From NCBI GenBank assembly GCA_018340375.1, contig JAFFJZ010000016.1, forward strand, positions 6,951,372 to 7,015,371: a DNA stretch of 64,000 nucleotides. The letters are read 5' to 3'. Below are positions 1,669 through 60,853 of the stretch, in pieces; position 1 is the first letter of the stretch, and every line of letters starts with the position of its first letter. The position numbers and the translations under genes are program-made. Origin of the DNA: Gonatopus flavifemur. Its lineage: Eukaryota > Arthropoda > Insecta > Hymenoptera > Dryinidae. The notes below the pieces were generated by a model. The model had not been told where the DNA came from. It saw only the letters and a list, made by a program, of their open reading frames with translations, and made no database searches.

Positions 1669-4600
1669 ATGAGTGATTTGGCTAAACTTATTGCTACTCG
1701 AGGTCGCATCAAATCTAGATTAACACTATTCTCTACTTGTTTAGAAAAAGCCACTGCGGAAGTTAATAAACGTATTGAATTGCCAAGTCGTATAGAGAAG
1801 TTAGAAGAATTGTGGCACGAATTTGATAAAATTCAAAATGAAATAGAGGAGTTGGATGAATCTGGGAAACAAGTGGGAGAAAGAGAATTATTTGAAAACT
1901 CTTTTCATGCTGCAATAGCTTCAGCAAGATCGTTGCTTCGAACTATCAATCGAGCGCCTGCTGATAATCAAGGCGTTCAAGCAGTAGTACAACCCGCACC
2001 AATAAATGTTAAATTGCCTAATATTGAATCACCCAAGTTCGATGGTAGTTATGATAATTGGATATCTTTTGAAGATATATTCGAATCATTATTAGATGAC
2101 AATCCAAATTTATCAAATGTGCAACGATTGCATTATTTCAAATCTAGTGTGTCGGGGGGAGCAGTTAACATAATAAAATCTTTGGAATCATCTAACGACA
2201 ATTATACTATTGCATGGGATCTGTTAGAACAAAGATACGAGAATAAGAAATTGATCGTATAACATCATATCCAACTTTTGCTTGATTTTCCCGCGATGAA
2301 TAAAGAATCATATAGTTCGCTTAGACAATTGGTAGATGATATATCTCGACATACTCAAACGTTGATCAAATTAGGACAACCAGTAAATGCTTGGGATACG
2401 ATACTGATTCATCTGCTTCTTCCTAAGATTGATAAAGCTTCTCGTAGAGAATGAGAATTGATGCGTTCAACAATAGAAGTATTCCCAACCTTGCAGGATT
2501 TTATAAAATTTCTTCAAGACAGGAGTACTTTTCTTGAATCTTTGGCACATTCTAATAATTCAGCTCCAAATGTGTATAATGACCAAAAAACAAATAAGAA
2601 ACCATTTAAAAAAGTTAAGGGTGTCTCACATACTTACGTTTCTTCAGTACAATCCCTTTGTGTTTTTTGTTCGGGTAATCACAAATTGTCAGATTGTATA
2701 GCGTTTCGAAATTTACCAGCTGGAACAAAGATTCCAGCTCTTAAAGAAAAACGAATATGTATTAAATGTTTAAAAAGTTATCACGGACGTAATTGTAAAG
2801 CCTCTGGTTGTAAAAAATGTAACGGTTACCATCATGTGCTTTTACATATTGATAAAGCTCGTAGTGACGAGATTACTAATAATATATCTAAATCAAATTC
2901 GAATAGTGCGACAGCCTGTGCAACTAACGTTGATAGTCTAGCTTTATCAGAACAACCTAATAATCACGTTGCATTCTCATCTTCGAATCATTGTGCAACG
3001 ATTGGTCTATCCCAAGTTTTGTTGTCAACGGCTATTATTATTGTGTATGGTGGGGCTGGGGTTCCGCATGAATGTCGAGTTCTATTAGATAGCGGATCAC
3101 AGTCTAACTTTATGACAAATGAATTGAGTGAAAAACTGAAATTAAAAAAGGATAGGGTTAACAATACAATATTGAGCATTGATGAAATCCCACTACAAAC
3201 TAATCATCAAGTTAAAGCCACTATTGAATCTCGCTTCAATGCTTTCAAGGCTGATCTACCTTTCACAACTATTGATAAAATAACAGGAAATTTGCCTGCA
3301 GTGAAAATGAATGTTCAACATATGAAGATACCTCCTAATATAAAATTAGCAGATCCTTTCTACCATGTGCCTAAAAGCATTGATTTGTTATTGGGAGCCT
3401 CTATCTTTTGGGATTTATTGTGCGTTGGCCAAATAAAGGTATGTAACAGTCAACCTACGTTTCAAAAAACACATTTAGGATGGGTTATTTCAGGTACATT
3501 GCATTTGAATTCTTCGTTCAATCAAAACCGGAAATCTTATTGCTGTTTCACGTCGAATTCCAATATTGATGTCCAGCTTGAAAGGTTTTGGAGCGTGGGA
3601 GAAGTTGAAAACCTCATTCATTTTTCTAATGAGCACATTCAATGTGAAGAACATTTTAAAATCACCCACACACGAGACGAGGAAGGAAGATTTGTCGTTA
3701 AACTCCCTTTGGAGGGTAATCCTAAGGAATTAGGGGATTCCCGAACAGCTGCAGAGAGACGCCTTAGAGCAGTTGAGAAAAAGCTAAAAAATCAGCCTGA
3801 ATTAAGGAACCAATATCATGAGTTTATGACAGAGTATATACAGTTGGGTCATATGTCCGAAATTGATGAGTTGAACGATTCAGTGATGACCAGATACTAT
3901 CTTCCACATCACGCGGTGATAAAGGAATCCAGTACTACTACGAGATTACGGGTGGTATTTGATGCCTCCTGTACTACTACATCTGGAAAATCTTTGAACG
4001 ACTTACTTATGGTCGGTCCGACTATTCAGGATGAGTTATTCTCAATAATATTACGTTTCCGTCAACACAAATATGTTCTGACTGCAGATATTGCCAAAAT
4101 GTATAGGCGAATAATTGTGAATCAGGAAGATCGTAATTTACAATGTATCCTCTGGAGATGGAATACTGAAGAAAATATTCGAACGTTTCAATTGAATACC
4201 GTAAAATATGGTATGTCAAGCTCACCATTTTCGGCTATACAATGTCTGCATGAGTTAGCAAAGGAGAACCAATCCACTTTCCCAGATGCCAGCGAAGTGA
4301 TTTCGAGGGGTTTTCTATGTGGACGATTTATTGACTGGAGCAGATGAGCTGTCCACTCTTCGCAACTTGAAAAACGATATCATCCACATTTTGGAAAAGG
4401 GTAAATTTGAGCTCAGGAAGTGGCATTCAAATTCATCAAAGTGTTTGAGTACCTACCAAGACGATCCACACGTGAATATTGGCGAAACTGCTAACGCATT
4501 GGGCTTGCACTGGAATACCATGACAGATACGTTGGAATACCGTGCAAACCTGGGAATTGAGAATATCAAACCGACTGAGCGTGGAATTCTTTCAAGTATT

Positions 4601-6441
4601 GCCCAAATCTATGACCCCCTGGGTTTGCTTGGTCCGATTGTTGTGCAATCAAAGATTCTTTTACAAAAACTGTGGCAGTTGGAGACGAGTTGGGATGAAT
4701 CACTCCCAATTGAAATATATTCATTGTGGACACGTTTAATGAAAAAATTGCGCAATATCAATAGTATTACAATACCAAGAAGAAGCATCTGTGATAATCC
4801 AAATGAAATCGGAATTCACGGTTTTTGTGATGCGTCAGAAAATGCCTATGGCGCTTATGTTCACCTTCGTAGTTGCAGCATGGAAGGTGAATATACAGTG
4901 CAACTTTTATGCGCCAAATCGAGGGTTGCGCCATTGAAGAAGTTATCGTTACCGAGACTTGAGTTATGCGGTGCAGTTTTATTGGCCAAGTTAGGAAAAA
5001 AGGTAACTGACGCATTAACCATAAGCATTAGCAATGTGTACTACTGGAGTGATTCTCAAATAACGCTGGCATGGATTGCTGGTGAATCATATCAATGGGG
5101 AACCTTTGTGGCCAATAGGGTCTCTGAGATTCAAACGTTGTCCGACAAAGTCCAATGGCATCATGTACGATCAGCAGATAATCCTGCTGATTTGATTTCA
5201 CGAGGAGTAGATCCTGACAAACTGCAAACTACGAGTATTTGGTGGCATGGTCCTAATATTCTGCAACGCCATGTTTCTCTATCACCTTTCAAGCTGGAAG
5301 ACGTTGTGATACCTATACCCGAATCTCGTAAAACAACCCTAATCGCTTGTACCAATTCAGTTCCCGAAGCAGGAATGGATATAATCAAAAGGTTTTCATC
5401 ATTATCAAGACTGACGCATGTTATTGCTCATTGTCACAGATTCAAAACTAATACTCTGAGTCAGAAAAAAGAAATTGAAAGTCAAAGCGGAAAATTAACA
5501 GTAAAGGAATTAGACGATGCTCTCCTCACAGTTATTAGGATTGTGCAAAGCTACGAATTTCCCACTGAACTTCAACAACTTCAATTTCAATCTCAAGTCC
5601 TATCCAGGAGTAAGTTAGTTAATTTGCACCCTTTTATCGATTCACAAGGTATAATTCGAGTGGGAGGCCGACTTGATCATGCACCTATTGATTATTCACG
5701 TAAACATCCTATAGTTCTCCCTGCTAAAAATCATTTTACAGAGCTCATCATCAGGGATACTCATTATCGACAACTTCATGCGGGATCTGAAGCCGTATTG
5801 GCAATTATTCGTACTAAGTATTGGCCGTTGATGGGAAGACAGAGTGTCCGACGAGTTTTGCGTAAATGCATTTTATGTTTTCGATCTCGTCCTGTGAGCA
5901 TGGAACCATTGATGGGAAAGCTTCCGTCTGCTCGTGTCACACAAAGTAAACCTTTTCTCAATACGGGTGTTGATTATGCTGGACCCTTTAATATTAAGAT
6001 TTCAAGAAACGTTACAGGAAAAGCTCATCTATGTATATTTATATGTTTTGCCACTAAAGCGGTCCATTTAGAATTAGTGTCCGACCTAACTACTTATGGG
6101 TTTTTGAATGCCTTGAAGAGATTTTTAGCGCGTAGAGGCAGATTAATTAATTACTCAAATGAAACAACACTTTTGGAACAGGTGGTCCCAAGAGTACATT
6201 TCCCAACTACAACAACGCCACAAGTGGTAACGAGAGAGCTCCAAACCCGTGTCGCCTGGTACTATGGTACTATTGAGAAACGAGAATACTCCTTCTCTTG
6301 ACTCGCCGTTAGGCAGAGTTACTGAAATTCATCCCGGAAAAGATGGAGAGACTCGTTCCTATACGTACCAAACATGGTTACACTCAAAGAGCTCTAACTA
6401 GAATTTGTTTATTACCAATCGATGATAATCTAGAAAAATAA
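1669..6441 (+). pseudogene. BEL-1 gag-pol polyprotein, disrupted
   Basis: Gag starts at the ATG at 1669. In-frame stops interrupt it at 2260 (TAA) and 2452 (TGA), both explicable as C-to-T changes. Downstream come Cys/His-rich zinc-binding clusters (about 2660-2850), an aspartic protease with DSGSQ (3088), and the reverse transcriptase, whose YVDD box (4316-4327) lies just after a one-base frameshift near 4306. RNase H follows (FCDAS near 4828, SDSQI near 5051), then the integrase zinc region (5761-5895) and the first integrase Asp in VDYAGP (about 5968). Around 6150-6290 the integrase core is scrambled or deleted, so the second Asp and the Glu are missing. A C-terminal tail (GRVTEIHPGKDG, near 6310) survives. 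RT and RNase H look well preserved, but the protein as a whole cannot be made. Confidence 0.9.
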
Positions 6442-13766: not shown

Positions 13767-14215
13767 TTCCCAGTATCCCATCTTCGAAAAAAAATGAAAC
13801 TGTGGGAGGGGTATTGGTTTTGCATTTTGAAGGATTCTGAAACGATTGCAATGAACCGGAATCAGAAGGAACCCGTTTTTTCACTACTAAAGTTTACTAC
13901 ACAACACACATTTCCATTTTCATTTATTCTACACGTCCACTCATGAATACAAAAGAAAACAATATCAAACCGTTCTGCACTAATTTGCACATGGGAATTG
14001 GCCAGGATTCAAGTTGAGACGTGTATTACAAATTCCTGTTCGCAAAATATTACCGCAATATTTCAGTGTGATTCATGATACATCATCGACACTGTAATAT
14101 TGCAGTGATATTACATCGAAATATATAATATCGTAATATTGCTGCAATATTACATTAGGATTTGTAATATTACGTCAATATTGTAATATCGATGCAATAT
14201 TATGTGCTGTGTGGG
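13767..14215. repeat. AT-rich block of degenerate palindromes, likely MITE
   Basis: From about 14040 the motif gTAATATTgc-gcAATATTAC recurs at least six times in alternating orientation, giving a strongly self-complementary stretch. Its right edge (gtgctgtgtgggg, 14203-14215) resembles the end of the foldback element near 39144 (gtgctgtatgggt) and abuts the truncated LINE at 14216. A matching left end was not located. The segment 13767-14040 shows no gene. Confidence 0.5.
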
Positions 14216-14810
14216 GACCCTCAGCTAGCCAGAACCCCTGTTCGATCTCATCTCCTACCCTGATCCTAACCTTCGTTTCTCTATACATACCTTTAATCCT
14301 GCTAACGAATCCCTCACTCATAACTTTTTTCCCCATATTGTCCCATGACTTTCCTCTATCTATTGTGTCAAACGCTGATCTCAGATCCACAAACGAACCT
14401 ACCATTCCTCCCTCCTCCTTCGCGACTTCTCTTCCTATCAGATAATTGATAACATCAATATTGTCCATTGTACCCATATCCTTCATAGAACCTGTTTGGT
14501 TATCTAGAATGATCCCTTTGTTCTTCATCTCCTCTCTCAATCTATTCGTCAATATTGTTGCATATATCCTATATAAAGAGGTCATCATTGTCACCCCTCT
14601 GTGATTTTCAACTCCATCTCCCTTTCCCTTTTTTCACAGGAACGACTAACCCTCCTCTCCAATCATCCAGCATCTTTTGTCTCTTCCAAACCTCACTACA
14701 TATTCCGAACACAGCTCTTGTCACTCCTCTCCCTCCCCATAACCATACCTCATTCGGCAGGTTATCAATTTCCGCCGCCTTATTTTTCTCAAGTTCTCGC
14801 ATCACCCTAT
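14216..14810 (-). pseudogene. LINE reverse transcriptase, partial
   Basis: Two frames read in order on the minus strand. The first covers 14805-14608 (EIDNLPNEVW, then a DWRGGLVVP fingers motif). The second covers 14594-14216 (SLYRIYATILTNRLREEM, SFVDLRSAFDTIDR with the first catalytic Asp). A frameshift lies near 14600. The sequence ends at the point where GVRQG-type and YxDD motifs should follow. Confidence 0.85.
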
Positions 14811-15462
14811 TTACCTCTCTCTCGCTAATTTCTTCTTCGATCCACTCCCTCTATCTCTTCCCCTCTTAATTTCTTCTCCCTCACTCTTGACAAACCTGCT
14901 CCTAATCTCTCTCCTACCCCTCCTAATAACTTCTGGAAATGATTTTTCCATTCATCCATACTATCCCTCTTCATCCCATGCTCTCATCCACCCCCCTTTC
15001 TCACTTCTTTCTTTATTGACAATTCTCCATACTTCTCCTTGTGATTCCGCCTTTCCCACCTCTTTGATATGATTCTTCCTCTCTTCTTCTTCTTTCCTTC
15101 ACATTCATCCTTTCATATTTTCAATTCCTCTCTAAATTCTGTCCTTGTCCCCTTATTCTTTCTCTATGTTCTCATGGCTCTTCTCGCTTCCTTTTGGAAG
15201 TTTCTACATCCCTCATCCCACCATTTACATCTCATGATACCTTTTTCTCCTTATTCTTCCATTTAAGTGATTTTTCATTCTCTCTTCCAAGTTCCTCAAC
15301 ATCTTTCCTATGCAACCCTCTCCCATCCCTTCATTCCATTGATATCTTATTTCACCTCTCATTCATCCATTGAAGTGATTTTTTAATTCCCTGTTCCAAG
15401 TTCCTCAACATCTTTTCGATGCAACCCTTTTCCATCCTTCATCCCTCCATTCCATTGATATA

Positions 15463-16203
15463 TTATTTCACTCCTTCCTCTGACCGGTCCATAATCTTTC
15501 TCACGGTCTTCTCCTCTCTCACTCTTCTCTGTAGTCCTTTCTCTCCCAGGAATACCGTCAATGATCTATGATCCGACTCTATCTTCTCTCTATCCCCTAT
15601 TACATAGTCTATCACCGTATCCCCTCTCGCCCCATTATATGTGTATTCTCCTTCACCATCCCCTTTTTCCGCCCCATCCATGATCCCCCATCCCCCCTCC
15701 TCTATAGCCTTTAACAGAATTCTTCTTTCACTATTTATCTTTTGCTCTCTTAATCTCCTCTTCTGGAATATTCCTCTCCCTTCTAGCCCACCTCTTTCTC
15801 CGGTTCTCGCGTTGGAGTCCCAACTCACTATGTTCCTCTCCTCTCTTCCTATTCCCTCAAACATTTCTTCCATTTTCTTAATTTTCTTTTCTACGCATTG
15901 ATTCACGTATACTCCCACTATGCTCCATTCCTCACCCTGCCATTTCATTCTTCTCATCATCATCCCTCCTTCATAAGATTCCTTTGTATTATCTGACACC
16001 TCTTCTATCTCCTTTCTGATTCCCATCATTATCCCTCCTATCGCTCTTCCTTTTTTCTCTGTTCTACTGGCCATTTGTATCTTCCAATTAAAATCTTCTG
16101 ATAAATTCCTCTGCACTTCCACCCAATCTTTTTCCTCGACCCAAGTTTCCACCACGTCCCATCTTTCTATATTCCCATTCAAATCCCCTTTTTTTCCTCT
16201 CAA
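15463..16203 (-). pseudogene. LINE endonuclease domain, partial
   Basis: A 246-residue open frame matches the second half of an exonuclease-endonuclease-phosphatase fold. Recognisable motifs are VETWVEE (near residue 20), WDSNARTG in the position of the usual GDFNAR (residues about 128-135), a TYNGARGDTVIDYVI block and SDHRSLTV near the C-terminus. The first residue of the GD box reads W-D. Upstream endonuclease sequence continues in another frame (16297-16088), so it is frameshifted. Confidence 0.8.
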
Positions 16204-16303
16204 TCACGCCACGTCCCGAAGTCCTATCTTCAACTCCAGCTCCGTCTACTTCCGCTATCACCTCTAATCTCCTCTTTTTTCCTCTGTTTTCCATCATTCT
16301 TCC

Positions 16304-17690
16304 TCAAAAATTCATCCCGTTCAGTTTTTCCCACCTAACAGCTCTTCCGTTCACCCTTAGTTTCCTACATTTCACAATCACATTGTCTCTCTTCTCCGCT
16401 GTCTCTCTGCGCGCCTCTTGCACTCCTCTTTCTTCCACTGTCAAATCTTCATCTAAAAATATCCTCGTCCCCTTCAGAGCTGCCCTTCTCCCCACTGTCT
16501 CACTCTCATCCCCAATGCTCTCCATCTCCAGTATAACTATTCTACTTCCTTCCTGCCCCGGAAATGTTGCATTTTTGATCCCGTTCGGCATCCTTAATCG
16601 CTCTCTTAGCACCTCAGTAGGCACTTCCGTTGCTGTTTTTTCATTTCCAATACCCCTGATTACAATATTCTCCTTTCCCTCTCCTGCCTTTCCAAATTCT
16701 TCCCCATGACTCTAATTCCTTTTATCATTCTTATAATCCCCCTCTGCTCTTCACATCTCACAGCACCTCCCTCCCCACTCCCGGTCGGGATTTCCTGTAA
16801 TCCAATTTTCTTATCAATTCCCTCTAATTCTTCATTTCACTTCTTCTCTAATTCTCCCCCCTCATCATTCCTCACTCCCTCGCCTTTCTTAATCCACTCC
16901 TCCATCCTCTTTTCTATCTCCCCTGCTCTATCGTCAATCCTCAACTGCATGATCTCTATCAACATTTCCCTAATATCTCCTCTCCGCCTTCGCGTTTCTT
17001 CTTTCATTTTCTTTCTTTCTTTCTCTCTCTCTCTCTCTGTCTCTCTATTGCATTGATCTCCTCAAATTCCTCCACCATCTCCCTCTTCATTCTACTCATT
17101 TCTTCTCTTATATTTTCCCAGTCTCTCCCTACCTTCTGTGAAGATCTGCTCACATTCGCACTTTTATTGAATGCTTTTGATTCTTCCGAATCCTCTTCCC
17201 TTTTCCCCTCTCAAATCTCTTCTTTTCACTAGTTGAACCATATCTCTCTCTCATAATGCTTTCCATTTTGCCTTCAGGCGTGAGAAACTTCTCCATTCCC
17301 TCTTGATCCCCCATTTCCCATCAATTTTCCTCGACCTTTGAAACCTGCAACACCCTAACTTTCACTGTCAACTCTCTCTCTTTTGCCTCGCCTGCTCTTA
17401 CCTGAGCTCCTTTATCAGCCCTTCTGCTCACCTCCCAATGTGTTCCTCTGTTTCTCTACCTACCCATTGCCTTTTATAGATTTCGCTAGTTGTGTCAATG
17501 AACAACTATATAGCCTTCCCCTCCAGAATATTTTTTCCAGAATATTAATCACCCACAATTTCAAACTCTGCTATTGTGCTTCTATTCCTGCACTGAAAAT
17601 TTCACCTTCACTCTCACACTCCCCTAGCCTCTTCGATAATCTCTTCCACTCATTGCTTCCCCTATATTGCACTTTTCTCTAATCACAATT
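16304..17690 (-). pseudogene. LINE N-terminal (ORF1-like) region
   Basis: The clearest part is 16624-16304, which encodes RIVILEMESIG and LKGTRIFLDEDLTVEERGV. This RNA-binding-like block precedes the endonuclease in many insect LINEs. Upstream, fragmented charged frames extend to about 17690 and would form coiled coils. Several stops are present. The 5' boundary is estimated from where the purine-rich coding texture ends. Confidence 0.6.
17010..17047. repeat. Pyrimidine microsatellite (ttctttc/ct)n
   Basis: A short (ttct)n run leads into (ct)n and tctgtc within the LINE N-terminal region. It is consistent with slippage in repetitive Glu/Arg codons on the minus strand. Confidence 0.8.
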
Positions 17691-18057
17691 CAGTTTTTCA
17701 TTTGGATCTAATCAATACCTATTCTCTATGCTACTTTCCGACCGGAAGTCTCCCACTAGTCAATAGTATTGAGAAAAATTGTGCGAAATTTGATGGAGGT
17801 CGGATGGTTAGTCTTTGAGAAATCGTGACTACTGACCTCAAAAAAGTGATTTCGAGGAAAACGCGCTCAAAGTTTCAGGTACATATAAAACGTACACACG
17901 TTCAATCTCAACAAAAATTTGTGAATCAATAAATATATATTCTGTAAGAGCCCCATTAGCACAACAAACAATAAGAACGTAGGAAGTTTTGTTAGGGTAG
18001 ACGATATAGCGATACCGACGCAGATACTGTATATATACCGCAACGCTCTCTATAGTG
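17691..18057. other. Unassigned spacer
   Basis: This AT-rich spacer lies between the LINE 5' side and the Transib-type end. No ORF, inverted repeat or pol III box was recognised. Confidence 0.4.
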
Positions 18058-18505
18058 CACAGTGGGCCAGGTTACACTAAACACTGGTCAAAATTCAGAA
18101 TGTCGGCAGAATCGTTTGAAACCTGGTGTAAAAGTTTTTGGGGTCGCTGATCACGAATCTGGAATCAAATTTTGGAAATTCGAGATGGCGGATCCAATAT
18201 GGTGGATTGAGATTCCAAAATACACCAAATTTCCTCGGAACTCTCCACTCAGTGGTTTTTTGGGGTCGCTGATCACGAATCTGCAATCAGATTTTGGAAA
18301 TTCGAAATGGCCGATCCAATATGGCAGATTCAAATTTCAAAATACACAAAATTCCTTCGAAACTCTCAAATCAGGGGTTTTTTGGGGTCGCTGATCACGG
18401 ATCTGGTGTCAGATTCCAAAAATTCAAAATACTCAATCCAATGGTAAGGGCTCAAATTTCAGAAATTTACGAAGTTACCTTCAAATATTCGTTGAAAGCG
18501 CTCAA
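18058..18505 (+). mobile_element. Lone Transib-type end with subterminal repeats
   Basis: The segment begins cacagtgggccagg, close to the termini of the complete Transib element at 49810-55335, and 23 bp after the heptamer it has an A-rich run (tcaaaatt). It is followed by three copies of the 121-122-bp repeat (ggggtcgctgat at 18140, 18262 and 18384), the same family found inside that element. No transposase and no second end were found nearby, so this is a terminal remnant or a single-ended derivative. Host DNA resumes somewhere near 18500. Confidence 0.65.
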
Positions 18506-23458: not shown

Positions 23459-24895
23459 ATGTCTCAAACTAAAGAGGAAAGTGACGAACAAGTAAAAGTT
23501 TCGTGGATTTACGAGTTACGTAAAGATGAAGTGATTGAATGTCTCAGTGAAAATAGAGTTCAATTCGATAGTGAGGACACATTAGAAAATTTAAGAAAAT
23601 TGTTGAGAGCAAAAGTAAAGGAAGGAGTCATTGAAAGATAGCTAGAGAAAGAAAGTGCTCAACAATCGACAATGGTAGAAATCGCAGCTCAACTCGAGTT
23701 TGATGTCAATAAAGATGATTGGGAGACATTCCAAGAAAGATTGGAGCTGTATTCCCTAGCAAACGGAATAACCGACGAAAATAAGCAAAAAGTGATTATG
23801 CTGACAAAAGTGAGTGCAAACACATATACACTTATACGCGATTCATGTCATCCTACTAAACCAAAGGATAAAACTTTAGTAGAATTGAACAAATTGATAA
23901 CCGATCATGTTAATCCAAAACCATCCGAGACAGTAGAAAGGTACAAATTCAATCAAGCGGTACAAAGTACCGATGAAAAAATATCAGAATTTGTCGTGAG
24001 ATTGAGAAAATGAGCTATCTATTGCAATTTTGCAGATCTCAATACGATGTTACGGGATCGTTTGACTTGTGGTATATGTGATCAAGACACTCGTGTACTT
24101 TCATTCAGAGAACAAAATCTGACGTTCGAAAGAGCTTACAGTATTGCGGTAAGCCAAGAAAAAGCAAAAGCAGATGCGAGTATATCAAGCAAAATGATGT
24201 CGGAATCGACAGAAATACAATATATAAAATCGAAACCAAGTACATCAACGGGCTACAAAGGTAGTAAAAGTAAATCTATTACTTGTTTTTGTTGCGGACG
24301 TTGTTGTCGTTTCCGAAATTTCAACTGTAACACATGCGGAAGAAGGGGACATCTTGAGAAAATGTGCAGAAACAAAGGAAAACCGATAACGAGGAGCAAC
24401 CGAAAAGTACAGTATCTGCAAGAAGATGAGAAAAGGCGATATAACGAACGAGAGGAAGAAGAGGAAGAGAAGAGCACAGAAAGCGACGAAGATTGTTATC
24501 ATTTAGAAGTCAACACATTGAGACAAAGCGAGGAACAGAAGCCAATGTACATGAGTGTAAGCATTGAAAATGTGAACGTAAGTATGGAAGTCGATACAGG
24601 CACTTTTGTTGCTGCCATTCCAAGATCAAAATATTTAGAATATTTCTCAAACATAACGTTATACAAAATCAATCTCATTCTCAACGCTTACGGTAATATT
24701 CCGATCGCTCCTATTGGATTGATAAAAGTTGATGTGAAATATGAAAATATAATGAGAAATCTTGAATTACACATAATGCCAACGGAGGGACCAATACTAA
24801 TAGGGATACAATGGCTGCATGCATTCGGATTATGGCCGCTAGAGTTTAGAAATAACGGCAATGTAAATAAAATTCAATTACATGATATGGAAAGA
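23459..24895 (+). pseudogene. Gypsy gag and protease region, disrupted
   Basis: One frame runs from the ATG at 23459 with stops at 23639 (TAG) and 24011 (TGA). It encodes a retrotransposon gag with the LRDSCHPTKP and DHVNPKPSETVERYKF blocks. It then has one Cys-rich run and a canonical knuckle CNTCGRRGHLEKMC (near 24328-24370), an acidic linker and an aspartic protease with VDTGTFVAAIP (near 24590). The frame is lost by a one-base shift in the A-rich stretch around 24890. Confidence 0.9.
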
Positions 24896-27568
24896 AAATT
24901 TAATAAAATTATTCCCAGATTTATTCAGTAATAAAAAAGGTGTCTATAATAGGGATACTATAAAGTTAATGGTGAAACCGAATACGCAGCCAAAAGCTCT
25001 CAAACCAAGTAGTTTATCATTCTCCATGAAAGAGAAGATTGAAAAAGAATTGGACCGTCTTGCGCATGAAGGGCATATCGAAGAGGTGCAGGATAGTGAA
25101 TGGGCTACGCCAATCGTACCTGTGCAAGAGTCGAATGGAGAAATCCGTATCTGTGGAAATTTTAAATGAACTGTGAATCCTTGTTTGATTGTGAATAAAC
25201 ATCCATTGCCCACTATTGATGATATTTTAATCAGCTTACAGGGGGGTGAATTATTTTCCGAAATTGATTTATATCATGCTTACATGCAAATATTAGTCCA
25301 TGAAGAAAGCCGCCAATATTTGACTGTCATAACACACAAAGGCCTATATAGGTACAAGAAATTGCTGGAAGGAATAGCTTCAGGGCCAGGTGATTTCCAA
25401 CAAAAGATGGAAGATTGTTTACGAGGAATTATTAACGTAGCAATTTATTCAGATAATATTTACGTCACGGGGAAAAATACGGCCGAACACTACGAAACCC
25501 TGAAGAAAGTTTTTCAGAGACTTCAAGAGTCAGGACTGAGAATGAACCTAAAAAAATGTGATTTTCTTAAAGAAAAGCTTGAAGTATTAGGATTCGTAAT
25601 CGATAAAAATGGGTTGCACAAATCTCCTGATAAAGTAAAGGCCATGATTGAAGCGCCAAGACCTATAGATTCAAAGCAACTAGCTTCTTTTATAGGACTA
25701 ATCACATACTATGGAAGATTTTTACCTAATACAGTGAAGAAATTAAAGCCACTCCACGATTGCGCAGCGAATGAAAAATTTGAATGGACCGAAAAATGCG
25801 AAGAAGCATTCACATGGGTAAAAACTGAACTTTCTTCAGAGAGGGTGCTAGCTCATTATGATAGGAATGAGGAATTGATTTCGGCATGTGATGCTTCCTC
25901 GTACGGTCTTGCGGCAATATTGTCACATAAATATAAAGATGGTACCGAACGACCTATTGAATTTGCTTCTAAAATTATACCAGAAAAAGAGGAAAATCGA
26001 GCGATTATTGACAAAGAAGCTAGTGCTATAGTCCTTGGTTCAAAAAATTTTACAGATATATAGCGGGTCAAGAAATAATTTTGAGAACCGACCACAAACC
26101 ACTATTGTATATATTCGGGCCAAATAAAGGTATTCCAGTAACAACAGCGAATCGATTGCAAAGATGGTGCTATTATTTAGCTGGGTTCAAATACAAAATA
26201 GAATATGTTAATACTAAGGCCAACGGGAATTGCGACGCTTTGTCAAGGTTACCGATTGCCGACAGAACGAAAATTTTTTCGATCTCCTACAACTCAATCA
26301 ACTATATTCCCGAAAACATGACAATTATTAATCGGAAGCAAATAAAGCGTGAAAGTGAAAAATGCCCGGAAATAAGAAATATCATTAAGTACGTACAAAG
26401 TGGTTGGGCACCAAAAGATAGGCTCTCAAGTGCGGAAAAGCAGTATCTCAATGTTAAAGACGAATTCTTCATCAAAGACGGATGTTTATTACGTGGAAAT
26501 CGAATTGTGGTACCCGTGAATTTACGATCCTCAGTAATCCAAAATGTCCATGAATCGCATCCGGGCATAGTGAAGATGAAACCGCTAACGAGAACTTATA
26601 TTTGGTGGCCAAACCTAGATAGCGATATAGAAACTGTAGTTAAGAGTTACAAAATTTGTATAGAAGAAGCGCGTCAACCGGAAAAAACGCGACTTACACC
26701 ATGGCCTTGGCCCGATAAGCCATGGGTTCGGGTACACAGTGATTTCTTAGGTCCGTTTTGTGGTAAAATGTTTATGATCGTAATAGATGCACACTCCAAG
26801 TGGCCGGAGGTGGTGGATATGGGACAAAACACTAGATCAACTCGAGTTATAGAAGCATTCAATTCTATATTCGTTCGCCATGGATATCCAAAATTACTGG
26901 TAACCGACTGCGGACCACAATATACAAATAAGGATTTTATGGAGTTTTGTAGAAAAAGAGGAATAAAACAATCGTTTTCGCCTCCCTATCATCCAGCTAC
27001 CAACGGAGCTGCAGAAAACTTTGTCAAAATTTTCAAAACTGAAGTCACCAAGATTATGAAAAGCGGGAAAATATTGAAAGAAGCGGTTAATTTATTCCTC
27101 TCAGACTATAGAAATACTCCGCATAGTACAACAAATAGAACACCAGCTTTCATGTTATATCGCCGAGAATCACGAACACGTTTTGATCTACTTAAGCCTG
27201 ATGTGGAGAACATTGTAATTGCTAAACAGGAAAAGCAAATTCTTCACAGAAGAGGGAGGAGGGAAGTGCACTTTAGGGTGGGCGATCACGTAATGGTGGA
27301 TGATCGACGAATCAATAGCAATAAGCGTGTCGAAGCAATAATAAAAAAACAATTATCTCCAGCTACATATTTAGTTGAAGTTGATCCAAAAACTGTTTGG
27401 AAAAGACACGTAGACCAAATAATTGCAATTGGTCCAAACACAGATTCTCATATACGATCGCCTTCACTAAGTGAAAACATCAATAGCAATCCCGCAAATG
27501 AGTTACGTCGCTCCTCGAGATTACAAATAAACCAAAACAAAAAAACAAATATATATATATATAATTAA
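24896..27568 (+). pseudogene. Gypsy reverse transcriptase, RNase H and integrase, disrupted
   Basis: The RT starts after the frameshift near 24890 and is stopped by TGA at 25167. The catalytic box that should be YxDD reads YSDN (about 25447), so the second Asp is lost. RNase H motifs (FEWTEKCEEAF, SACDASSYGL) follow, with a frameshift near 26045. The integrase is open from 26081 to 27568. It has the catalytic Asp in HSDFLGPF, a second Asp in VTDCGPQYT and Glu 36 positions later in GAAENFVK, the normal D,D35E layout. The zinc region has lost its first Cys (KSYKIC). Overall the element cannot reverse-transcribe on its own. Confidence 0.9.
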
Positions 27569-49341: not shown

Positions 49342-49809
49342 TTTATTCACACAAAATTTTGAACTGTGTATGGATTTGACATTTACTGATCACCCAATAC
49401 ATACTCTGTTGAACCGGAAGCCCATCCTACAAGATTCATATGACATGAAAGGCATACGATACTTGGTGTCCATCCTTCATTGAGATTATCAGGCATTATT
49501 CGGAAGTATTGAAGATAATGTTCTTGAAGAGAGTTGGTTAATTGACGATGATTCCTCTTCGCCACATAATTACCACACATATAGCAAAAATTATCTGGAT
49601 GGTTTGTGGACTCAAAACTTCGTTTCCTTTTATTCATTGTGTGTCGGATGAATCGAAAGAAGGGCTCTGATTTAATCAAAAGGCAGAATATCGAATCAAC
49701 CAATTCCATAACACCTGATAAGAGACGTATGTGGAATGTCAGAGGAACAAAGGATGCAAAAAAAAACAGAAGACAAGCGATGAGCTGGAATTATTTCTAA
49801 TCACGGCCG

Positions 49810-49844
49810 CACAGTGGGGCCAAATGCCAAAAAGCTGGACAAAA
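49810..49844 (+). repeat. Left terminal inverted repeat of Transib, RSS-like
   Basis: Reads cacagtggggccaaatgcc and onward. The first seven bases equal the consensus V(D)J signal heptamer. After a 22-bp spacer comes acaaaatta, an A-rich run in the position where a 23-spacer signal has its nonamer. The nonamer comparison is inference. Confidence 0.92.
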
Positions 49845-49894
49845 TTATAAGGGGCTCTTAAATTCGCTTGCGACTTCGTACTCGGGAAGTTTAT

Positions 49895-50810
49895 GGGGTC
49901 ACTGATTACGAATCCGTTGTCAGAATTTCAAAATTCAAAATGGCGGATCCAATATGGCGGACGAAAATTGAAAGAAACCATCGGATTTTCTTCAAACTTG
50001 GTGATCAGGGGTTTTTGGGGTCGCTGATTACGAATCTGCTGTTTGAGTTCCAAAATTCAAAATGGCGAATCCAATATGGCGGACCAAAATTTTAAAAATC
50101 ATCGGATTCTCCTCAAATTGGGTACCCAACGGTTTTTGGGGTCGCTGATTACGGATCCGTTGTTCTCATTTCGAAATTCGAAATGGCGGATACGATATGG
50201 TGGACGAAAATTGGAAGAAATCATCGGATTTTTTTCAAATTTGGTGATCAGGGGTTTTCGAGGTCGCTGATTACGAATCCGCTGTCTGAGTTCCCAAATT
50301 CAGAATGGCGAATCCAATATGGCGGACGAAAATTGAAAAAATTATCGGATTCTTTTCAAATTGGGTACCCAGGGATTTTTGGGGTCGCTGATTACAAATC
50401 CGTTGTCTGCATTTCGAAATTCAAAATGGCGGATCCAATATGGTGGAATAAAATCGAGAAGATCATCGGATTTTCTTCAAACTCGGCATCCAGGAGTTTT
50501 TGGGGTCACCAATTACGAATCCGTTGTCAAAATTTTGAAATTCAGAATGGCGGATCCAATATGGTGGACAAAAATTAAGAAAATCATCGCATTTTCTTCA
50601 AACTCGGTACTCAGGGGTTTCTGTGGTCGCTGATTACGAATCCACGGTCTGAAATCCAAAATTCAAAAGAACGGACCCAATATAGCGGACGAAAATCCTA
50701 AAAATCATCGGATTTCCTTCAAACTCGGTACCCAGGGGTTTTCGGGATCGCTGATCACGAATCCGTTGTCAGAATTCCGAAATTCAGGATCGCGGATGCC
50801 AAAAATCAAA
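49895..50810 (+). repeat. Subterminal array of eight 121-bp repeats (left)
   Basis: The marker ggggtcgctgattacg, or a close variant, starts at 49895, 50017, 50138, 50260, 50381, 50502, about 50623 and about 50743, a period of 121-122 bp. Each unit also contains aaatggcggatccaatatgg or a variant. Units near 50017 and 50260 share gtgatcagggg while those near 50138 and 50381 share gggtaccca, an alternating two-unit pattern. Short ORFs across it are by-products of the repeat. Confidence 0.93.
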
Positions 50811-51275
50811 ACTTCATTCATAACTTAATATTAAACAAGAACTAAACGGCCCATTTTGTTGTTCCTATTATGATCAATATAATTATTATTTCCAACATTG
50901 AATCATCATTAATATAATTATCGAATGATATTAACACACCAAATATGTTAAATCGAAAGATATATACATTCACAATATATACAATAACATAAAAAACTGA
51001 AATCGTAATGGTTTTTACTTTTGCCACACTTTTGTTACTCAGATCAGTCTTCTTCTTTACTCTCAGAGGAAGATAATGGGAAAGTTACGTTGTCTTTATC
51101 GAGTATATCCGGAGTTTTGATCAGGCTTAACACGTCTCTAGGGAGAAACTTTAGTTTTTTCTTGGGGAACTGTCTTTTACTCGATAACATTGGATCAGAA
51201 CTGAAAAGGAACCATTTAAAAATGTCTTCATTCGTTTTTTCTCTACTGCATTCCCTGGAGTGATGCTCTCGGTAC

Positions 51276-51751
51276 CTTTGGAAATGAATGTTGTTAAGAT
51301 ATTTGAATATAATTATGTATTCATCGACACCGTTAAAGCTTTCGATCTCAACATGACAAGCAACATCAAGGAAAAACAAAAAGCAGCTGCACTTTGGGGT
51401 CATCAGTATAAAGTTTTGAATAAATCCTCTAATTCATAAGTTTACTTGATTCTCAAAATTGTTTTCTAGTCTATGAATTTATGTTTCCAGAGGATGAACA
51501 ATGTGGCTTATTAATAAACAAAAGTATATGAATATTCATAATTCCCCGAATCCCTTACCAGGACAAAACAATCTTCGCGAACATATATTCTCGTGGTTAC
51601 CATAAATATATAGTTTGCCTAGTAGTCAAAAACGTATTATGCAATGTATCAAACTGATTGCAGTACTTGAGAAGTCAAATTTTTCCCTGCAAAGTGTCGA
51701 GTCCACTGTGACAAATATAGACTATTATTAAGTGATATACATCATTTTCAC
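51276..51751 (-). other. Intron in the Transib transposase gene
   Basis: The donor is AAAAG/gtgaaaatg and the acceptor is catttccaaag/GTACC. Splicing joins the codon series AAA AG-G TAC CGA, so the NKDFKR block runs directly into YREHHSR, a continuation expected from the family. Reading through the intron meets a stop at once (TGA at 51750-51748). Confidence 0.85.
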
Positions 51752-53554
51752 CTTTTAAAATCTTTGTTACGAGCCTCTTGTGCTTCCTCAGTCAATTGGC
51801 CTATAGGTAGAAGAGCAGATGCAATGATTTCAGGTCCGTGGATCAAAAACTTGTGCATCGTAGGTGACATTGGGTACCACGGATATTTTGTCGCGTAGTA
51901 GCGTGCCGTGTCTAAAGCGTAACTCCGAAACTTTTCAACGTCTATTTCATGGCCACTTGAAACGGTAGCTAATACTACATGAAGTCGTTGTATTAGGTTG
52001 ACATCCACCCCTGTGATTTCGGCAGAAACTCCGGGTTGTGCGAAAAATCGCCTAGCGGTATTCCCATCATTTGAGTTCCCAAACCCTGGCTTAGGAACAT
52101 CGACAATGAGGCCACATTTTTCTTTAAAACTTTTCTGTACAACCTTTTTTCGTTCTTCCACCAAAGCTTTATCTTGTTTTCGTGCTTGCCACTTCTGAAT
52201 AGGTAGCTTATAAGACAAATGCAGGAGGCCCTCCAAAAATCGTATCCAGCCGCGTAGACAAGACAAACCAAACTGGAGGTTTTCGGTTTTGACCGGCCTG
52301 GATACTATATCATCAATTTTGTTGAATTCCTTAGATGTGGCACCACATATATAGCACTTCTGGGTATAGGTTGTCTCAGTTATGGCATTGCATACCTTCC
52401 CGTCCACCATAGAAAAAATCATCTCATGTTTCACTGAAACATGTTTTTCATCAGTTCTGAAAGAAGTAGCCCTCAGATTTTCTATTTCATTATCAACCCG
52501 TAGCTTCTCTGCAACCGAAACTTCAGTTGATTCTTTCACAAACTCTATTTTGATTGGCCTACAAAATCTGGTTGATGATGGCCTTGGATTCTGCCAAATT
52601 ATTTTTGAATTGCAGTGTAGGCGGAGAGGCACAAGTGAAGTAATGAACACAGCGGAATCACTAGCTTCCGAACTTTGATATGCTTGTTTGTATGAGGAGT
52701 GGCCAGAGCTCCCATCAAACCCCCATTTGGAAATAAGTACCAGGTTTTGTAACTCTTCATCAGATAAAGTTGACAAAACCGAATTCTGTAGCTTTAAAAT
52801 ACGTGTAGCTGTGTGATCAAGAAGTGCTTGTAGTTGCACAACAGCGCAGGTTTCTGTTATTTGAATAAATTCCTTGTCAGGGAAACACATGCGTTTGGCC
52901 AGTTGAATTTTTTTATAAGGTGGAAATTTCTGCGGATCAGCTTCACGCAATAAGCAGTACTGATGTTTTGAGAGCTCGGCATCTACTAGGAGAGCTAGAG
53001 CATCTTCATCATTCAACATCTTTGGCTCATTTCGCTTGAAAGTTTGATAACCTTCCATATACATCTTGGCAAGCTCAGGATCAGAAGATGTAACATCCTT
53101 TACAATTTTTGCGGCTTCGATCTGTCCAGACGCTCTCAAACACATTTGTGTGGCGTAAGACAGCTCTGAGATAGGAGTATTTACTCTGATATTCTCCGTT
53201 TTCCTACGTTTCGTTCTTTCTGAACATTCGTTGAATTCAACAAGAGGTCTTCCCACTTGCGTGTGAACAGTTACAGAATGGGGATTCCTGAAAGTACAAA
53301 ACACTACCTCTTGTTTTAACCATTCTTCATTATTTTTAAGAAATCGTTCTTCGGTCCTTTGAGAAGATTCCCATCTCTTTTTAAATACACATTCAAAAGT
53401 AGATAAAAGGTAGTTTTGTTATCCGGACAACACGTTATCTCGATGATTTTTCCTTGAAGGAAAGTGAACTTTTCATCCAACGTAGGTAGAGGGCTGCTCC
53501 TTAAAATATTGTACATCTCTCTCCGAGTCATAGATATTGAATCATCTTTGAAAT

Positions 53555-53719
53555 CTACAAACGTTGTAGAGTTCGATAAAATTCGCTACAGAAACCCCAT
53601 GTGTTTCTAAAAATTTTCCTAATTTTCTTCGGTTGGATTCAACCCTCTTAAGCTAATTTTTTTGCAGTCAACTGTTCAAATTAAACTACTAAGAAAATAT
53701 AGGTTGTTGAAACACTCAC
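53555..53719 (-). other. Possible first intron of the Transib gene
   Basis: A strong donor (AG/GTGAGTG at 53719) follows a 19-nt coding start, and a tttgtag acceptor ends at 53555. The joined frame continues into the second exon without a stop. Support is from splice-site quality and frame only. Confidence 0.5.
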
Positions 53720-53738
53720 CTATGGCAGCGGAATCCAT

Positions 53739-54379
53739 CTCATTTGGAATTGTATGTTAACATTGAATGATTTTAAAAAACGAAAAATATTCACCAAGCT
53801 CCAAACTTGCACGCGGAAAAAAGTTTACGGTAACGATTACTAGCAAGAGTAAGAATTCGGTGACAGCTGTTGCACAATTGTGATAAGCACTATTTGAAAT
53901 CAGACCGATTACAACCAACTATTTACGTTGCCATGGAAACGATAGGTTAACATAAGAACAATCACCAAATCGCGAGTCATGATTCAGTTCACGAAAAGAG
54001 AAGAGATATCAATACTTGAATAACATTTATAAACATTTAGGAAAATGACGGTTACTTTAGGGAAAAAGAGCATCGCTAAAGAATGTTAGCAGTGAAGTTA
54101 CCAAAAATTCGTAGTAATAATACTAAATGTTGGTAGTTTTATTGTCATTTCCCATAGTGAATTCATCAACTCATAGTAAATTCACTACGAATATTCTCCA
54201 GCAATACTGTTTTTCTCTCAATGGTCCATCATCTTCCTGAATATCAATGATTTCTGGCTTTTGTGTACCCCAAGCCCGCGATGAGAAGAAAAACGAATGG
54301 TAATCAATCTCATACAGTTTTCCTTGTGCAGCGAATGTACACTGGAAATAAAACACATACTAACGTTGAGATAAAATTC
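53739..54379. other. Transib 5' non-coding region
   Basis: AT-rich with no supported ORF. It would contain the promoter, but no TATA box or initiator can be assigned with confidence. Confidence 0.4.
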
Positions 54380-54780
54380 AAAGCGAATCTACTGAATTTT
54401 GAGTTTTGTGTCCACCATATTAGATACGCTATCTTTGATTCTTGGAATTTGACAACTGATTCGTAATCAATGACCCCACAAAACCCTGGATACCGAGTTT
54501 GAAGGAAATCTGATGATTTTTTCAATTTTTTTCTGCCAAACTGGATCCGCCATTCTGAATTCCGGAATTCAGACACCGGATTCGGAATCAGCGACCTTAA
54601 AAACCTCAGGGTACCGAGTTTGAAGGCAATCCGATGATTTTTTCAATTTTCATCCGCCATATTGGATCCGCCATTTTGAATTTTGAAATTCAAACAACGG
54701 ATTCATAATCAGCGACCCCACAAACTTCTGCATATCAAGTTTCAGACGGATCTAAGGACTCCTCATCACTCCGTCTAATT
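54380..54780 (-). repeat. Subterminal 121-bp repeats (right), inverted
   Basis: About three units with the markers reversed: gattcgtaatcaatgacc at about 54458, the equivalent at about 54578 (ttcggaatcagcgacc) and at about 54700 (ttcataatcagcgacc), period about 121 bp. They are the complement of the left array, so the arrays extend the inverted-repeat character of the element. Confidence 0.88.
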
Positions 54781-55300
54781 TTTTGTGATTTCCTGCACAA
54801 AAACATGGCGGAATTGCTTAGGGGCAGACATGGGCAGCCGTTTTTTTTTCTGATGTTCAGGTAAGAGTCCCATCTACCACCTCCAATAAGTTAAACGACG
54901 TAATTTTGCGTAATTCTCTACTATTCCTTCAAAAACCAAACACATTTTCTCATTTATAGATATAGAAAGTACATCCAATCATTGCTCTGTCAGTATTTTC
55001 CACTGATCAAATTGATATTCTCTTAATTTTTAGTGTATTCTACATAGTTTCAGTAATAGACTCCAATTTGAAAAAGTTAAATCGGTTCATTTTTCGAGAC
55101 ACAGCGTCTTTTTGAACATGCTCGTTATTTTACTGTCTTTCAATCACGCGGATTATACTTCGAGGAGGGTATTTTGCAACTGGTACACAAGGGCAGGGGG
55201 AGGGGATCAGATCTTTTTATATCAGAATTCCAATACTTGGGACATCACCTTACTCATCCCAAGGGTCAAATATCCCCAACTACAAACTTCATTTTTGGGG
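54781..55300. other. Transib right subterminal spacer
   Basis: About 520 bp between the right array and the right inverted repeat. The left side has only about 50 bp in the same place, so the two ends are asymmetric. No gene. Confidence 0.5.
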
Positions 55301-55335
55301 TTTTGGCCAGCTTTTTGGCATTTGGCCCCACTGTG
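55301..55335 (-). repeat. Right terminal inverted repeat of Transib, RSS-like
   Basis: Complement of the left end, with one mismatch in 35 bp. On the minus strand the heptamer CACAGTG is followed after 22 bp by ccaaaaccc. Confidence 0.92.
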
Positions 55336-55340
55336 GGCCG

Positions 55341-56454: not shown

Positions 56455-56885
56455 ATTTCAATTTTGATATAAAAACACTAAAGCGTCAACAATTGCGTTT
56501 GGCACTGACCAAATTACCAGCTGTTTGAAATACCTCCTCAGATGGCGTCGAAGTTGCTGCTGATGCTAAATATTTCTTAGCCAACTTCGCTATATGAGGA
56601 TACATAGATTCATGTTCTTTCCACCACCTCAGAGGATTCATATTGAAATTGATAGGAGATTCTGATAAGTACCCTTGAACTTCCGTTAACCTCACATCCT
56701 CAGAAATTTCATCATTGGAACTTCGTTCGTTAAATAAATAATCCCAATCGGTCTGCTTTGGTTCCGGCTCGTCAATCTCTCTTGTTATCTCCTCTACCAA
56801 TCCTGACAATTTTCCTTCTATCATCAATTTCGCATCACACTCTTCTCCAAGTAAATTTCTGTATCTAGGATTTATAAAGGGAATT
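56455..56885 (-). pseudogene. hAT transposase, C-terminal dimerisation domain
   Basis: The minus strand encodes FINPRYRNLL, a charged linker, then NPLRWWKEHESMYPHIAKLA, KYLASAATSTPSEEVFQTAG and NLVSAKRNC, the classic hAT C-terminal block. After a frameshift or small deletion near 56490 a short IVDALVFLYQN tail ends at about 56455. The catalytic half is not present. A GT donor-like site near 56984 suggests a possible upstream exon, not confirmed. Confidence 0.85.
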
Positions 56886-58154
56886 GGAAGGAGTAAAATG
56901 ATGAATATGTCATATGAGGGATGGAGAGTACATGTTTGATTGAAGTATTGATATGTTTTGTGAAATCGTGTAAATTTAGATTTACCTGGAACTGTGGCCA
57001 GTTGAATCGAGTTAACTTCGCCTTCTTGACAGCTTATATTTAGAAATCCTTCTCGTAATCCTGTAGTAACAATGGCCTTGAATTCTTTAGTGAATACACT
57101 ATCGTTCTCTTGTCACATCCCAAGTATTCCAAGGAATGGAATATTCAGGAAGAGCACGGTCCAAATAATTTCCCTATTCAGCAGGCTTAGCAAGGAAGGG
57201 ATAGGGTCAGTTTTTCGGTGTGGAGTTGAAAAGGTTCTCAGATTGATCACGATGAATTTCAAGGTGAAATCATAATTTATTTCGAAAAAAAAACACATGT
57301 TTTATCTGCTGAAATTCCTCCTAATATTGATTTCAATCACTTCGTCAAACCTAATTATATCAATTCACTCTCTGAATAAGACCTATAAATACTCTCAAAT
57401 TTCTTACACAATTCACAATTATAGAAGGAAATTTGGAATTTGATACAGTTTTCGCACCGTTCAGGTGGAGGTGTAGGTGTAACTTACCAATACAATACTT
57501 TTAGGAGATTCCTATATTTCCCCCAATTCTTTTTGTCCTTAATATGATCACGCTTTAAACCTTCGTAATGGGGGTGTAGCAAGGCCCCAGGTCGAGAGGA
57601 GATTTTGCGTCATTTCTTCAATCACCCCCCTGCTTAGGCAATTTTTAACAAAATCATCTCGATCTGGTTCACTAAGTTAGAAGAAAAAAAAATTCTTAGG
57701 AGTTGGTCACAAGCAAATTGAATATAATGATGCAAATTGAAGATAGGATCTCGAAATTCTTAGAAGTGATTCAGGGTTTGATTTTATAAAACTTTGAGCG
57801 AATTGGAAGAATAAGAAAAGTAAAAGAATCATGGTTATCGAATAAATAAAAGGTACTTGGGGTATGCCTTGTTAATCAAGGATTCCCAAGCATTGACGAG
57901 GGAAGAAGGGTGCCATGTATGACATGTGCACTCAACTTCAGGGCTTGTGTATGGCACAAGTATGATAATGTAATACTCACTTTTGAAATTGAAGATAGTT
58001 GACTTTGTATGTTGTGTTCCGGTGAGTTGTATGGAGGAAAAACGTTCCTTCCATCCTCCTTGGTTGGGATGCGTTTGCCTTGCCTGTGCTCGTCCAATCT
58101 CAGTCGGGTTGGCAGATAAATCTGACGATCTTATCCTGGACGTTGGTTTTCAAT
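56886..58154. other. No gene seen
   Basis: AT-rich. Several 60-80-residue ORFs on both strands without motifs. Confidence 0.4.
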
Positions 58155-58385: not shown

Positions 58386-58455
58386 GTTAACCTTCCGGCG
58401 GGCGCGTCAATTTCTGTAACACGAGCAGTCGCGTGGTGGACTTTGTTCACCATTA

Positions 58456-59345
58456 GGATTATTCAATGAAATGACACTGAAAAAGTACCCGAATGGACTT
58501 GAACCCTCGTCTCAAAGGGTTTTTGAGGGCGCTGAATCCGAATCTGAAGTCAAAGTTTCAAAATTCAAAATGGCGGATCCAATATGGTGGACTTGAATTC
58601 GAAAATCACTCGAATTCGCTTAAAAATGATTACTCGGGGGTTTTTGGGGTCGCTGAATTCGAATCCGAACTCCAAATTTCGAAATTCGGAATGGCGGATC
58701 TGAAATGGCGGACGTGAATTTGAAATTAGGATTATTAGAGATTATATTAGAAATTAGGATATACCACCAGGATTATTCAATGGAATGACACTGAAGAAGT
58801 ACTCGACTGGACTCAAACCTGTGTATTGAGGGGTTTTTGGAGTTTCTGGATCCGAATCTGGAGTCAAAGTTTCAAAATTCAAAATGGCGGATCCAATATG
58901 GCGGACGTGAATTTCAAAATCACTCGGATTTGCTCGAAAATGGTTACCTGAGGGTTCTCGGGGTCGCTGAATCCGAATCTGGAGTCCAAGTTTCAAAATT
59001 CACAATGGCGGATCCAATATGGCGGACGTGAATTCCAAAATCACTCGGATTTGCTCGAAAATGATTACTCGGGGGTTTTTCGGGTCGCTGAATCCGAATC
59101 TGGAGTCCAAAATTTAAAATGGCAGATCCAATATGGCGGACGTGAATTTCAAAATCACTCGGATTTGCTCGAAAATGGTTGTCCGGGGGTTTTCGGGGTC
59201 GCTGAATCCGAATCCGAAGTCCAAAATCCAGAACTCGGAATGAAAGATCCAATATGGTGGTCGTTAATTTCAGAATCACTTGGAGTAGTCCGGAACCCAT
59301 CACTCGGGAGTTTTCGGGGTCGCTGAACCTGAATCTGAAGTCAAA
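58456..59345 (+). repeat. Array of about seven 121-bp repeats
   Basis: The marker ggggtcgctgaatccg, or a variant, occurs near 58525, 58646, 58839, 58960, 59082, 59195 and 59316. Each unit has the aaatggcggatccaatatgg core. A higher-order copy begins ggattattcaatg at 58458 and again at 58770. It is the same family as the Transib subterminal repeats, but no CACAGTG end was found beside it. Short spurious ORFs result from the repeat. Confidence 0.9.
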
Positions 59346-60853
59346 ATCCCAAAATTTTGGATCTACAAATTCAGCAGTTCCGACGAAATTTCCAACTCAG
59401 CTAAATCTGCTGAGGAATATTCATTAAGTAATTTCCAAGGCTGCTGAATCTATTTTCGAATTCGGAATTGAAAAGACGAGAATGGGGAATTCGGAGTGAG
59501 ATACCCAACGTGTCAACAATTCACTGACTGTGTACACAATAAAGAATATATGAAGATGACCAGATATTTTAAACCTGCTCAGATGCAGGATCATGGAACA
59601 TACATTTATCCCTTGTTTACAAAGTTTATTTGATCTGCAGTATGAACGGGTGATTGTAAATTTCTCCAGGTGTACGAAAGGACACTAGAGTATTTCGAAA
59701 TCAGTGCCAAGATGGCATTGAGTACGAATGCACTCGGAAATCAGTACCCTGGACCTAGTTGGAAAGTGCTTTTTTGGGAAGTCCAAAAAAAAGTCCTTAT
59801 TTGGAATTTTTTTATTACGCATTGGAATAAATAATATCAAATGTTTCTCTACATGAAAGATATTATATGTATTGGAAGGTTTGCATTGTATATAAATTTT
59901 CCATCACTCCATGTTGAGAAATACTTGGGATGCAGTCAATCTGCGAGAGGTCCAAAAGAAAATCGGTGATCTCTATAACTTGAAAATGGCTTTACCGACC
60001 AGTTGGAAATTATTCATCTATTCTGTATATGCTTGTCTTCCGGATAAACGGAAGAATCTGAAAAATGTTGATTTTTTACAAAATGACGGATGTTTGGAAT
60101 TCAAAATTGTTTATTTGGCCAAAATTTCATTCACATTTTCGAGTATGAAAAAAAATAATCGTCAAAATGAAATTTCTTCGACCATCTTGAGGGCAATTAG
60201 ATGAAGGATCAGTAGCTCCGTTCGTTGCAACGTATTCTCAGTCACTCTAACTTGCTCCAGATATTTTTAATTCGCTTTTTTAATTATAAAAATGATTTGT
60301 TCTGTTTGGTGCAGATTGGGGCAACTCAGGTCACTTTGGAACGAACGAAGCTAGTGAGGATAATTCCAAACTGATCAGTAAAGCCATTCTCAAGCTACAA
60401 TGATCACCGCCTTCTTTTTCAATTCCTCGCAGATTTGATGTATCCCACGTATTCCTCAATATCGAGTTATGAGGAATTTCAAATTCTTCTCCAAATGCGT
60501 ATATTTCATGTGGAGAAACATTTATTATTGATTATGTTCGAGTATGGCAAAAATATCCTGAATGAGCGCTTTTTTAGACCTTCCAACTAGATCTGCTCCT
60601 ACGCGTTTGATTTTAACAAGAGAATTTCTCACAATGCATAATCATGGATCATAAACTGGAATTGTAAGCATGCGCACTCTCATATTCAGTTCATCCGAAG
60701 TGAAATATTCCTCTGACCAAGGATGGACAGCTTCAATTACTTTTTGTGCTTGTAATACTATTTCTCATCAAGATGTCATTGAAGTTTATTAAAACGAATT
60801 AGTGATCGGATAACGGAATACTCAGCTGTTGGAGACCCAAAATTCTGCAGTAC
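59346..60853. other. Mostly unassigned
   Basis: A 97-residue plus ORF (59911-60204) is the only notable frame. It has no recognisable domain and no evidence of expression. Confidence 0.35.

Follow-up and report, generated by a model that had tools for sequence, protein, structure and literature searches.

What kind of DNA lies between the two inverted copies of the heptamer CACAGTG that delimit positions 49810 to 55335 of the 64-kb stretch analysed here (part of contig JAFFJZ010000016.1, referred to in its entirety as the window)? An earlier note on this DNA had taken the segment for a complete Transib transposon, that is, a mobile element whose transposase is related to the RAG1 recombinase. 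We find that the segment has the ends, the target-site duplication, the gene and the protein similarity that this proposal calls for, and with a probability of about 97% we regard it as a copy of a Transib cut-and-paste transposon that has recently multiplied in the genome of an animal, probably an insect.

Ends of the element and its predicted transposase

The element consists of 35-bp terminal inverted repeats that enclose a transposase gene on the minus strand. The left repeat (49810-49844, plus strand) and the right repeat (55301-55335, minus strand) both start with CACAGTG, the right one when read on the minus strand, and 34 of their 35 positions pair (97% complementary), leaving the one mismatch that the earlier note had reported. 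Directly outside both repeats lies the sequence GGCCG (49805-49809 and 55336-55340), a target-site duplication that is perfect, again as described before. Searching the window with the outermost 17 bases of the ends and allowing up to 3 mismatches returned two matches, exactly the two ends of the element; in 100 shuffled sequences the mean number of matches was 0.08, and a single shuffle reached two. Note that CACAGTG is the consensus heptamer of the V(D)J recombination signal sequence (RSS). The bare heptamer is by itself weak evidence, being found 10 times in the window against 5.0 expected. When the ends were compared with the RSS nonamer (without a chance control), the best nine-base matches agreed at 7 of 9 positions, with a spacing of 10 at both ends and of 21-22 at the right end, and neither a spacing of 12 nor one of 23 was found among the best five nine-base matches of each end. 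Rfam, used at gathering scores, had no match in the window.

The minus-strand frame at 51748-53418 encodes 556 amino acids and holds all four of the protein blocks that the earlier note had quoted. In direct comparison, the window protein matched HzTransib (6pqn) with an E-value of 5.5e-114 over query residues 135-556 and RAG1L (6b40) with an E-value of 0.019. A profile built from 17 relatives, the kind of check that the earlier note had suggested, reached HzTransib at 1.9e-175, RAG1L at 1.5e-10 and RAG1 chains from 1.9e-06. Moreover, when an AlphaFold model of the protein was used in a fold search, HzTransib came first (6pqx, E 2.1e-32) and RAG1 next, and all 49 matches at E ≤0.001 were to HzTransib, RAG1 or RAG1L. 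These comparisons of sequences and of a predicted fold support the view that the putative transposase is strongly similar to Transib and, by profile and by fold, significantly similar to RAG1.

The catalytic triad of HzTransib is given as D126, D225 and E436 in excerpts of the literature (PMC6941560, 2014 review). Residue numbers of PMC6941560 and of the PDB chain differ by an offset of 17, taken from the protein alignment, and with this offset the three residues are found in the motifs WGFDG (its D), MIDGK (its D) and EEASE (its last E). In the window protein they correspond to D235, D339 and E548 (minus-strand codons at 52714-52716, 52402-52404 and 51775-51777), where the triad is intact and invariant in an alignment of 17 sequences. 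Of the features of the Transib superfamily, the element has the transposase homology, the DDE triad, the RSS-like heptamer ends, the 5-bp duplication and a CGNCG-like target; among the frames scanned, it also has a single RAG1-like gene without a RAG2-like partner.

We considered whether the element might instead be a RAG-like (ProtoRAG/RAGL) transposon, which would carry both a RAG1L and a RAG2L gene between similar ends. Such an element would have in common with the one in the window the RSS-like heptamers, the 5-bp duplication and the similarity to RAG1 and RAG1L by profile and fold. Against it, HzTransib is by far the closer match in the direct comparison reported above, and no RAG2-like gene is present among the scanned frames within or overlapping the element. 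In particular, 13 of the frames of at least 60 amino acids within or overlapping the element, scanned as a set of three (the transposase frame among them) and a set of ten, gave no Pfam family at the E limits used. A ProtoRAG/RAGL transposon is therefore a very improbable identity for this DNA.

Relatives of the window protein are numerous. Among 7991 candidates scored in a search of 5.8 billion proteins, 1046 matched at E ≤0.001, and the best of the 120 relatives listed was LOC115890777 of Sitophilus oryzae (P0001), which is 60% identical across 99% of the query. The organisms named among these 120 are insects, most rows being unnamed. It is these named homologues that make the animal carrying the element probably an insect. 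(Note that PF26100.1 is precomputed on several homologues, P0007, P0012, P0020 and others, and that our Pfam scan did not report it for P0007 or P0020.) In the viral contigs of IMG/VR 55 stretches fitted a peptide pattern, as did 34 stretches in GTDB genomes, and tblastn confirmed none of them in either collection.

The earlier note had placed the gene at 51044-53738. We keep its end, move its start inward and add a probable intron. Translation most probably starts at the ATG at 53529-53531 (MTRREMYN), because this is the first ATG of the frame in 13 of the 14 genomic copies that keep a 616-codon frame (see below) and because the homologue P0010 begins, with MTRREL, at the same position. From this probable start the main exon would run over 51752-53531 on the minus strand. 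In tblastn alignments of eight homologues the main frame stops around 51751, and the match resumes in a last exon from 51286-51295 downward; the minus strand has GT at 51751-51750 and AG at 51277-51276. Based on these alignments, the open frames and the GT and AG signals, an intron of 476 bp (51276-51751) probably precedes a last coding exon of 76 codons and a stop (51044-51275). In the window copy the reading frame shifts near 53,410, where the N-terminal frame (53316-53585) overlaps the main frame (beginning at 53418) out of register; this is the single frameshift that had been noticed before, and as read, this copy is unable to make the full protein in one frame.

Genomic copies, target sites and proposed movement

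If the element is a transposon, how many relatives does it have in the genome, and how old are they? In the genome searched (636,049,841 bases in 402 contigs) at least 78 places encode the transposase frame at 97-100% identity, and 60 of these 78 matches have no internal stop. The number 78 is a lower bound set by scoring, as 78 of 2127 first-look candidates were scored. We studied closely the 20 places that scored best, the window's own place aside. Both ends were present in 16 of them, making 17 complete copies together with that of the window. As for the other four, L012 and L028 carry about 0.9 and about 0.8 kb of inserted DNA, respectively, and the stretches retrieved for them did not show a right end; L025 is without its left part, and the alignment of L024 stops about 80 bases before the right end. 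The 616-codon frame is open in 14 of the 17 complete copies (all except the window copy, L017 and L022), and eight of the 17 combine this frame with a last exon 76-77 codons long. A shorter last exon is found in three complete copies (L009, L019 and L020). An exact-string search did not locate the last exon in L011, L015, L017 and L027, which does not imply that it is broken there, and the intron donor string has no exact match in L016, L022 and L027.

With the arrays described below excluded, the 17 complete copies differ pairwise by 0.45-1.99% (mean 1.54%), and each is 0.41-1.03% from the consensus. Of 436 variable sites, 347 are changed in a single copy. Because the distances to the consensus are this small and the changes mostly private to one copy, the pattern is that of a star-like, recent burst, and the earlier description of the element as young holds for these copies, which were picked by similarity to the window protein, so that older copies are under-represented.

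The wide retention of open frames could also be expected of a gene that the host had domesticated from Transib, the way RAG1 arose, rather than of a mobile element. Consistent with such a gene, non-synonymous changes among the 17 copies stand at 0.57 of the neutral ratio for single-copy changes and at 0.33 for shared changes; we do not rely on these ratios, since picking copies by protein similarity lowers them by itself. What argues against domestication is that numerous copies, nearly identical, sit at different sites and each has a duplication of its own, and that the frame of the window copy is broken. We consider it highly unlikely that the element is such a gene.

Target sites were read in the 25 copies for which both ends were available, namely the 17 complete copies and, through end pieces, eight of ten further copies (C176:1481286 and C392:18531438 were left out, each being without one recognisable end). 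These copies have the same end bases, so the boundaries at 49810 and 55335 stand up to comparison with other insertions. Neither of the two results that the earlier note had named as grounds for rejecting its proposal, a lack of profile similarity and deviating boundaries in other copies, was obtained. Among the 17 complete copies the CACAGTG of the terminal repeats is kept, save for one base at the left end of one copy. A perfect 5-bp duplication lies directly outside CACAGTG in 21 of the 25 copies, and in two more (L020 and L021) the duplication has one mismatch. Moreover, 19 of the 21 perfect duplications are within one mismatch of CGNCG, as compared with 2.4% of the 5-mers in the window. 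CGNCG is known as a preferred Transib target site (PMC4735498, in excerpt).

The earlier note had also called for sites at which the insertion is absent. Such uninterrupted counterparts were found for two other copies, L020 and L026, both counterparts lying inside the window. For each copy the flanks were joined after removal of one duplication and aligned to window repeats; the counterparts are thus paralogous repeats and not alleles. The joined flanks of L020 align to 46609-45599 at 79% and those of L026 to 8065-7279 at 80%, in both cases without a gap at the join. The two duplications of L020 differ at one base, at which the empty counterpart has the base of the left duplication, and the counterpart of L026 differs at two of the five duplication bases. 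These alignments support a boundary at CACAGTG and a 5-bp duplication that would have been made by insertion.

Several observations weigh against the reading of the element as a recently amplified Transib. The AlphaFold model is of middling confidence (pLDDT 73.8, pTM 0.58). The Pfam RAG1 model misses the window protein even at an E-value of 1, and the three homologues that reach this model do so only below its curated cut-off. Finally, two of the 25 copies, L018 and C302:1372843 (L052/L048), have complete ends and unmatched 5-bp flanks. Recombination between copies could leave such flanks, and it is here that spread by segmental duplication or satellite amplification, as opposed to transposition, finds its support, together with the varying number of array units. 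Arguing against this mode of spread, the flanks of the 17 complete copies, compared over up to 600 bp on each side, do not share duplicated blocks and gave only a few matches, which are to other repeats, the duplications differ between copies, and the two empty counterparts are continuous across the join; we give it very little credence.

For a recently amplified Transib, the route of movement can be sketched by analogy with HzTransib and the RAG systems. The transposase would pair the two CACAGTG ends and nick the DNA at the heptamer border, the element would be cut out with hairpins left on the flanking DNA, and the excised element would be joined to a CGNCG-like site through a 5-bp stagger. 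Because its ends look intact, the window copy could still be moved, in spite of its broken frame, by the transposase of sister copies. An exact search of the genome for signal joints, with ends fused head to head and 0-5 bases between them, found none; diverged joints would escape such a search.

Subterminal arrays and other features of the window

Inside the terminal repeats the element carries two arrays of a 121-bp unit that face each other, a left one of about 7.5 units (49889-50802, plus strand) and a right one of about 2.7 units (54411-54742, minus strand). By motif count, the 17 complete copies have 5 to 10 units on the left and 3 to 4 on the right. The unit also occurs at 18135-18466 and within 58455-59363. 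(The latter stretch is another array built of this unit family, and no CACAGTG end can be recognised next to it.) Two exact patterns made from the unit had no match in viral contigs.

The units at 18135-18466 adjoin a second, diverged CACAGTG end at 18058, which reads CACAGTGGGCC...CTGGTCAAAA and is followed by the array; in the region 18058-18466 the units, of 121 or 122 bp, begin 77 bp inside the end CACAGTGGGCCAGG...CTGGTCAAAA. This end resembles those of the element in having CTGG, one base and CAAAA at a nearly equal distance, and a diverged Transib probably has its left end at position 18058. A matching right end was not identified. Weighing against this assignment, a loose end pattern gave three matches in the real sequence, two of them the known ends, versus four in all over 20 randomised sequences. 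Because the loose pattern arises in randomised sequences too, the case for 18058 is built on the pattern together with the adjoining array.

The facing arrays may serve as accessory binding sites, or they may be repeats whose unit number simply grows and shrinks. We reasoned that, because the unit keeps its register, 77-79 bp from CACAGTG, beside the diverged end at 18058, the arrays might have been kept while the rest diverged, as a functional part of this Transib lineage to which transposase or host factors bind and thereby control end pairing. We regard this as a speculative and rather unlikely reading. If true, the ends of such a Transib would be extended and built around arrays, in contrast to the compact RSS.

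Other parts of the window carry frames and compositional features of their own. Pao-type retrotransposon frames (DUF1759, Peptidase_A17 and an integrase zinc domain) lie at 1585-6301, and further retroelement frames at 24014-27568, the last of which has RNase H-like and integrase domains. A minus-strand frame immediately to the left of the element (49383-49790) has a CxxC...CLSC-like pattern and a sub-threshold match to Pfam zf-CGNR (E 0.12), and a minus-strand frame at 56486-57112 has a hAT C-terminal dimerisation domain. The region 14001-18000 is of extreme base skew, unlike the remaining window, with GC skews of -0.58 and -0.55 and AT skews of about -0.3 in two successive 2-kb steps.

Comparison with known systems

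The importance implied by the earlier note was too high. Excerpts of the literature already describe the single-gene Transib with RSS-like ends, 5-bp duplications and a CGNCG target (PMC7204232, PMC4735498), and the element adds to this known family and is not a new kind. What is noteworthy in it is the copy number, the unbroken relatives and the array-bearing ends. Transib is a transposon lineage related to the RAG recombinase, and dozens of near-identical copies, many with open frames and precise duplications, are a natural resource for studying RAG-type cutting, the repair of hairpins and the pairing of ends, in a host that, if an insect, has no V(D)J recombination. With arrays lying just inside the ends, one is also led to ask in what respects Transib and RSS-based recombination differ in recognising their ends.

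Among known systems, HzTransib (PDB 6pqn, 6pqr, 6pqu, 6pqx, 6pqy and 6pr5) resembles the window protein in its catalytic triad and is 40-44% identical to it in structural alignments; by this identity, compared at the protein level, it belongs to another family. The Transib-like proteins of insects, the best being that of Sitophilus oryzae, have a start region and a last exon like those of the window gene, as judged from protein comparison alone. ProtoRAG/RAGL and vertebrate RAG1 are of the same fold family as the predicted transposase, and RSS-like heptamer ends with 5-bp duplications are described for ProtoRAG/RAGL and Transib alike (PMC7204232, in excerpt). ProtoRAG/RAGL and RAG1 differ from the window element in that their identity to its protein is 12-18% in structural alignments and in that the element is without a RAG2 partner in the scanned frames. 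With the V(D)J RSS the ends of the window element share the heptamer, and no convincing nonamer at 12/23 spacing was found among their best nine-base matches.

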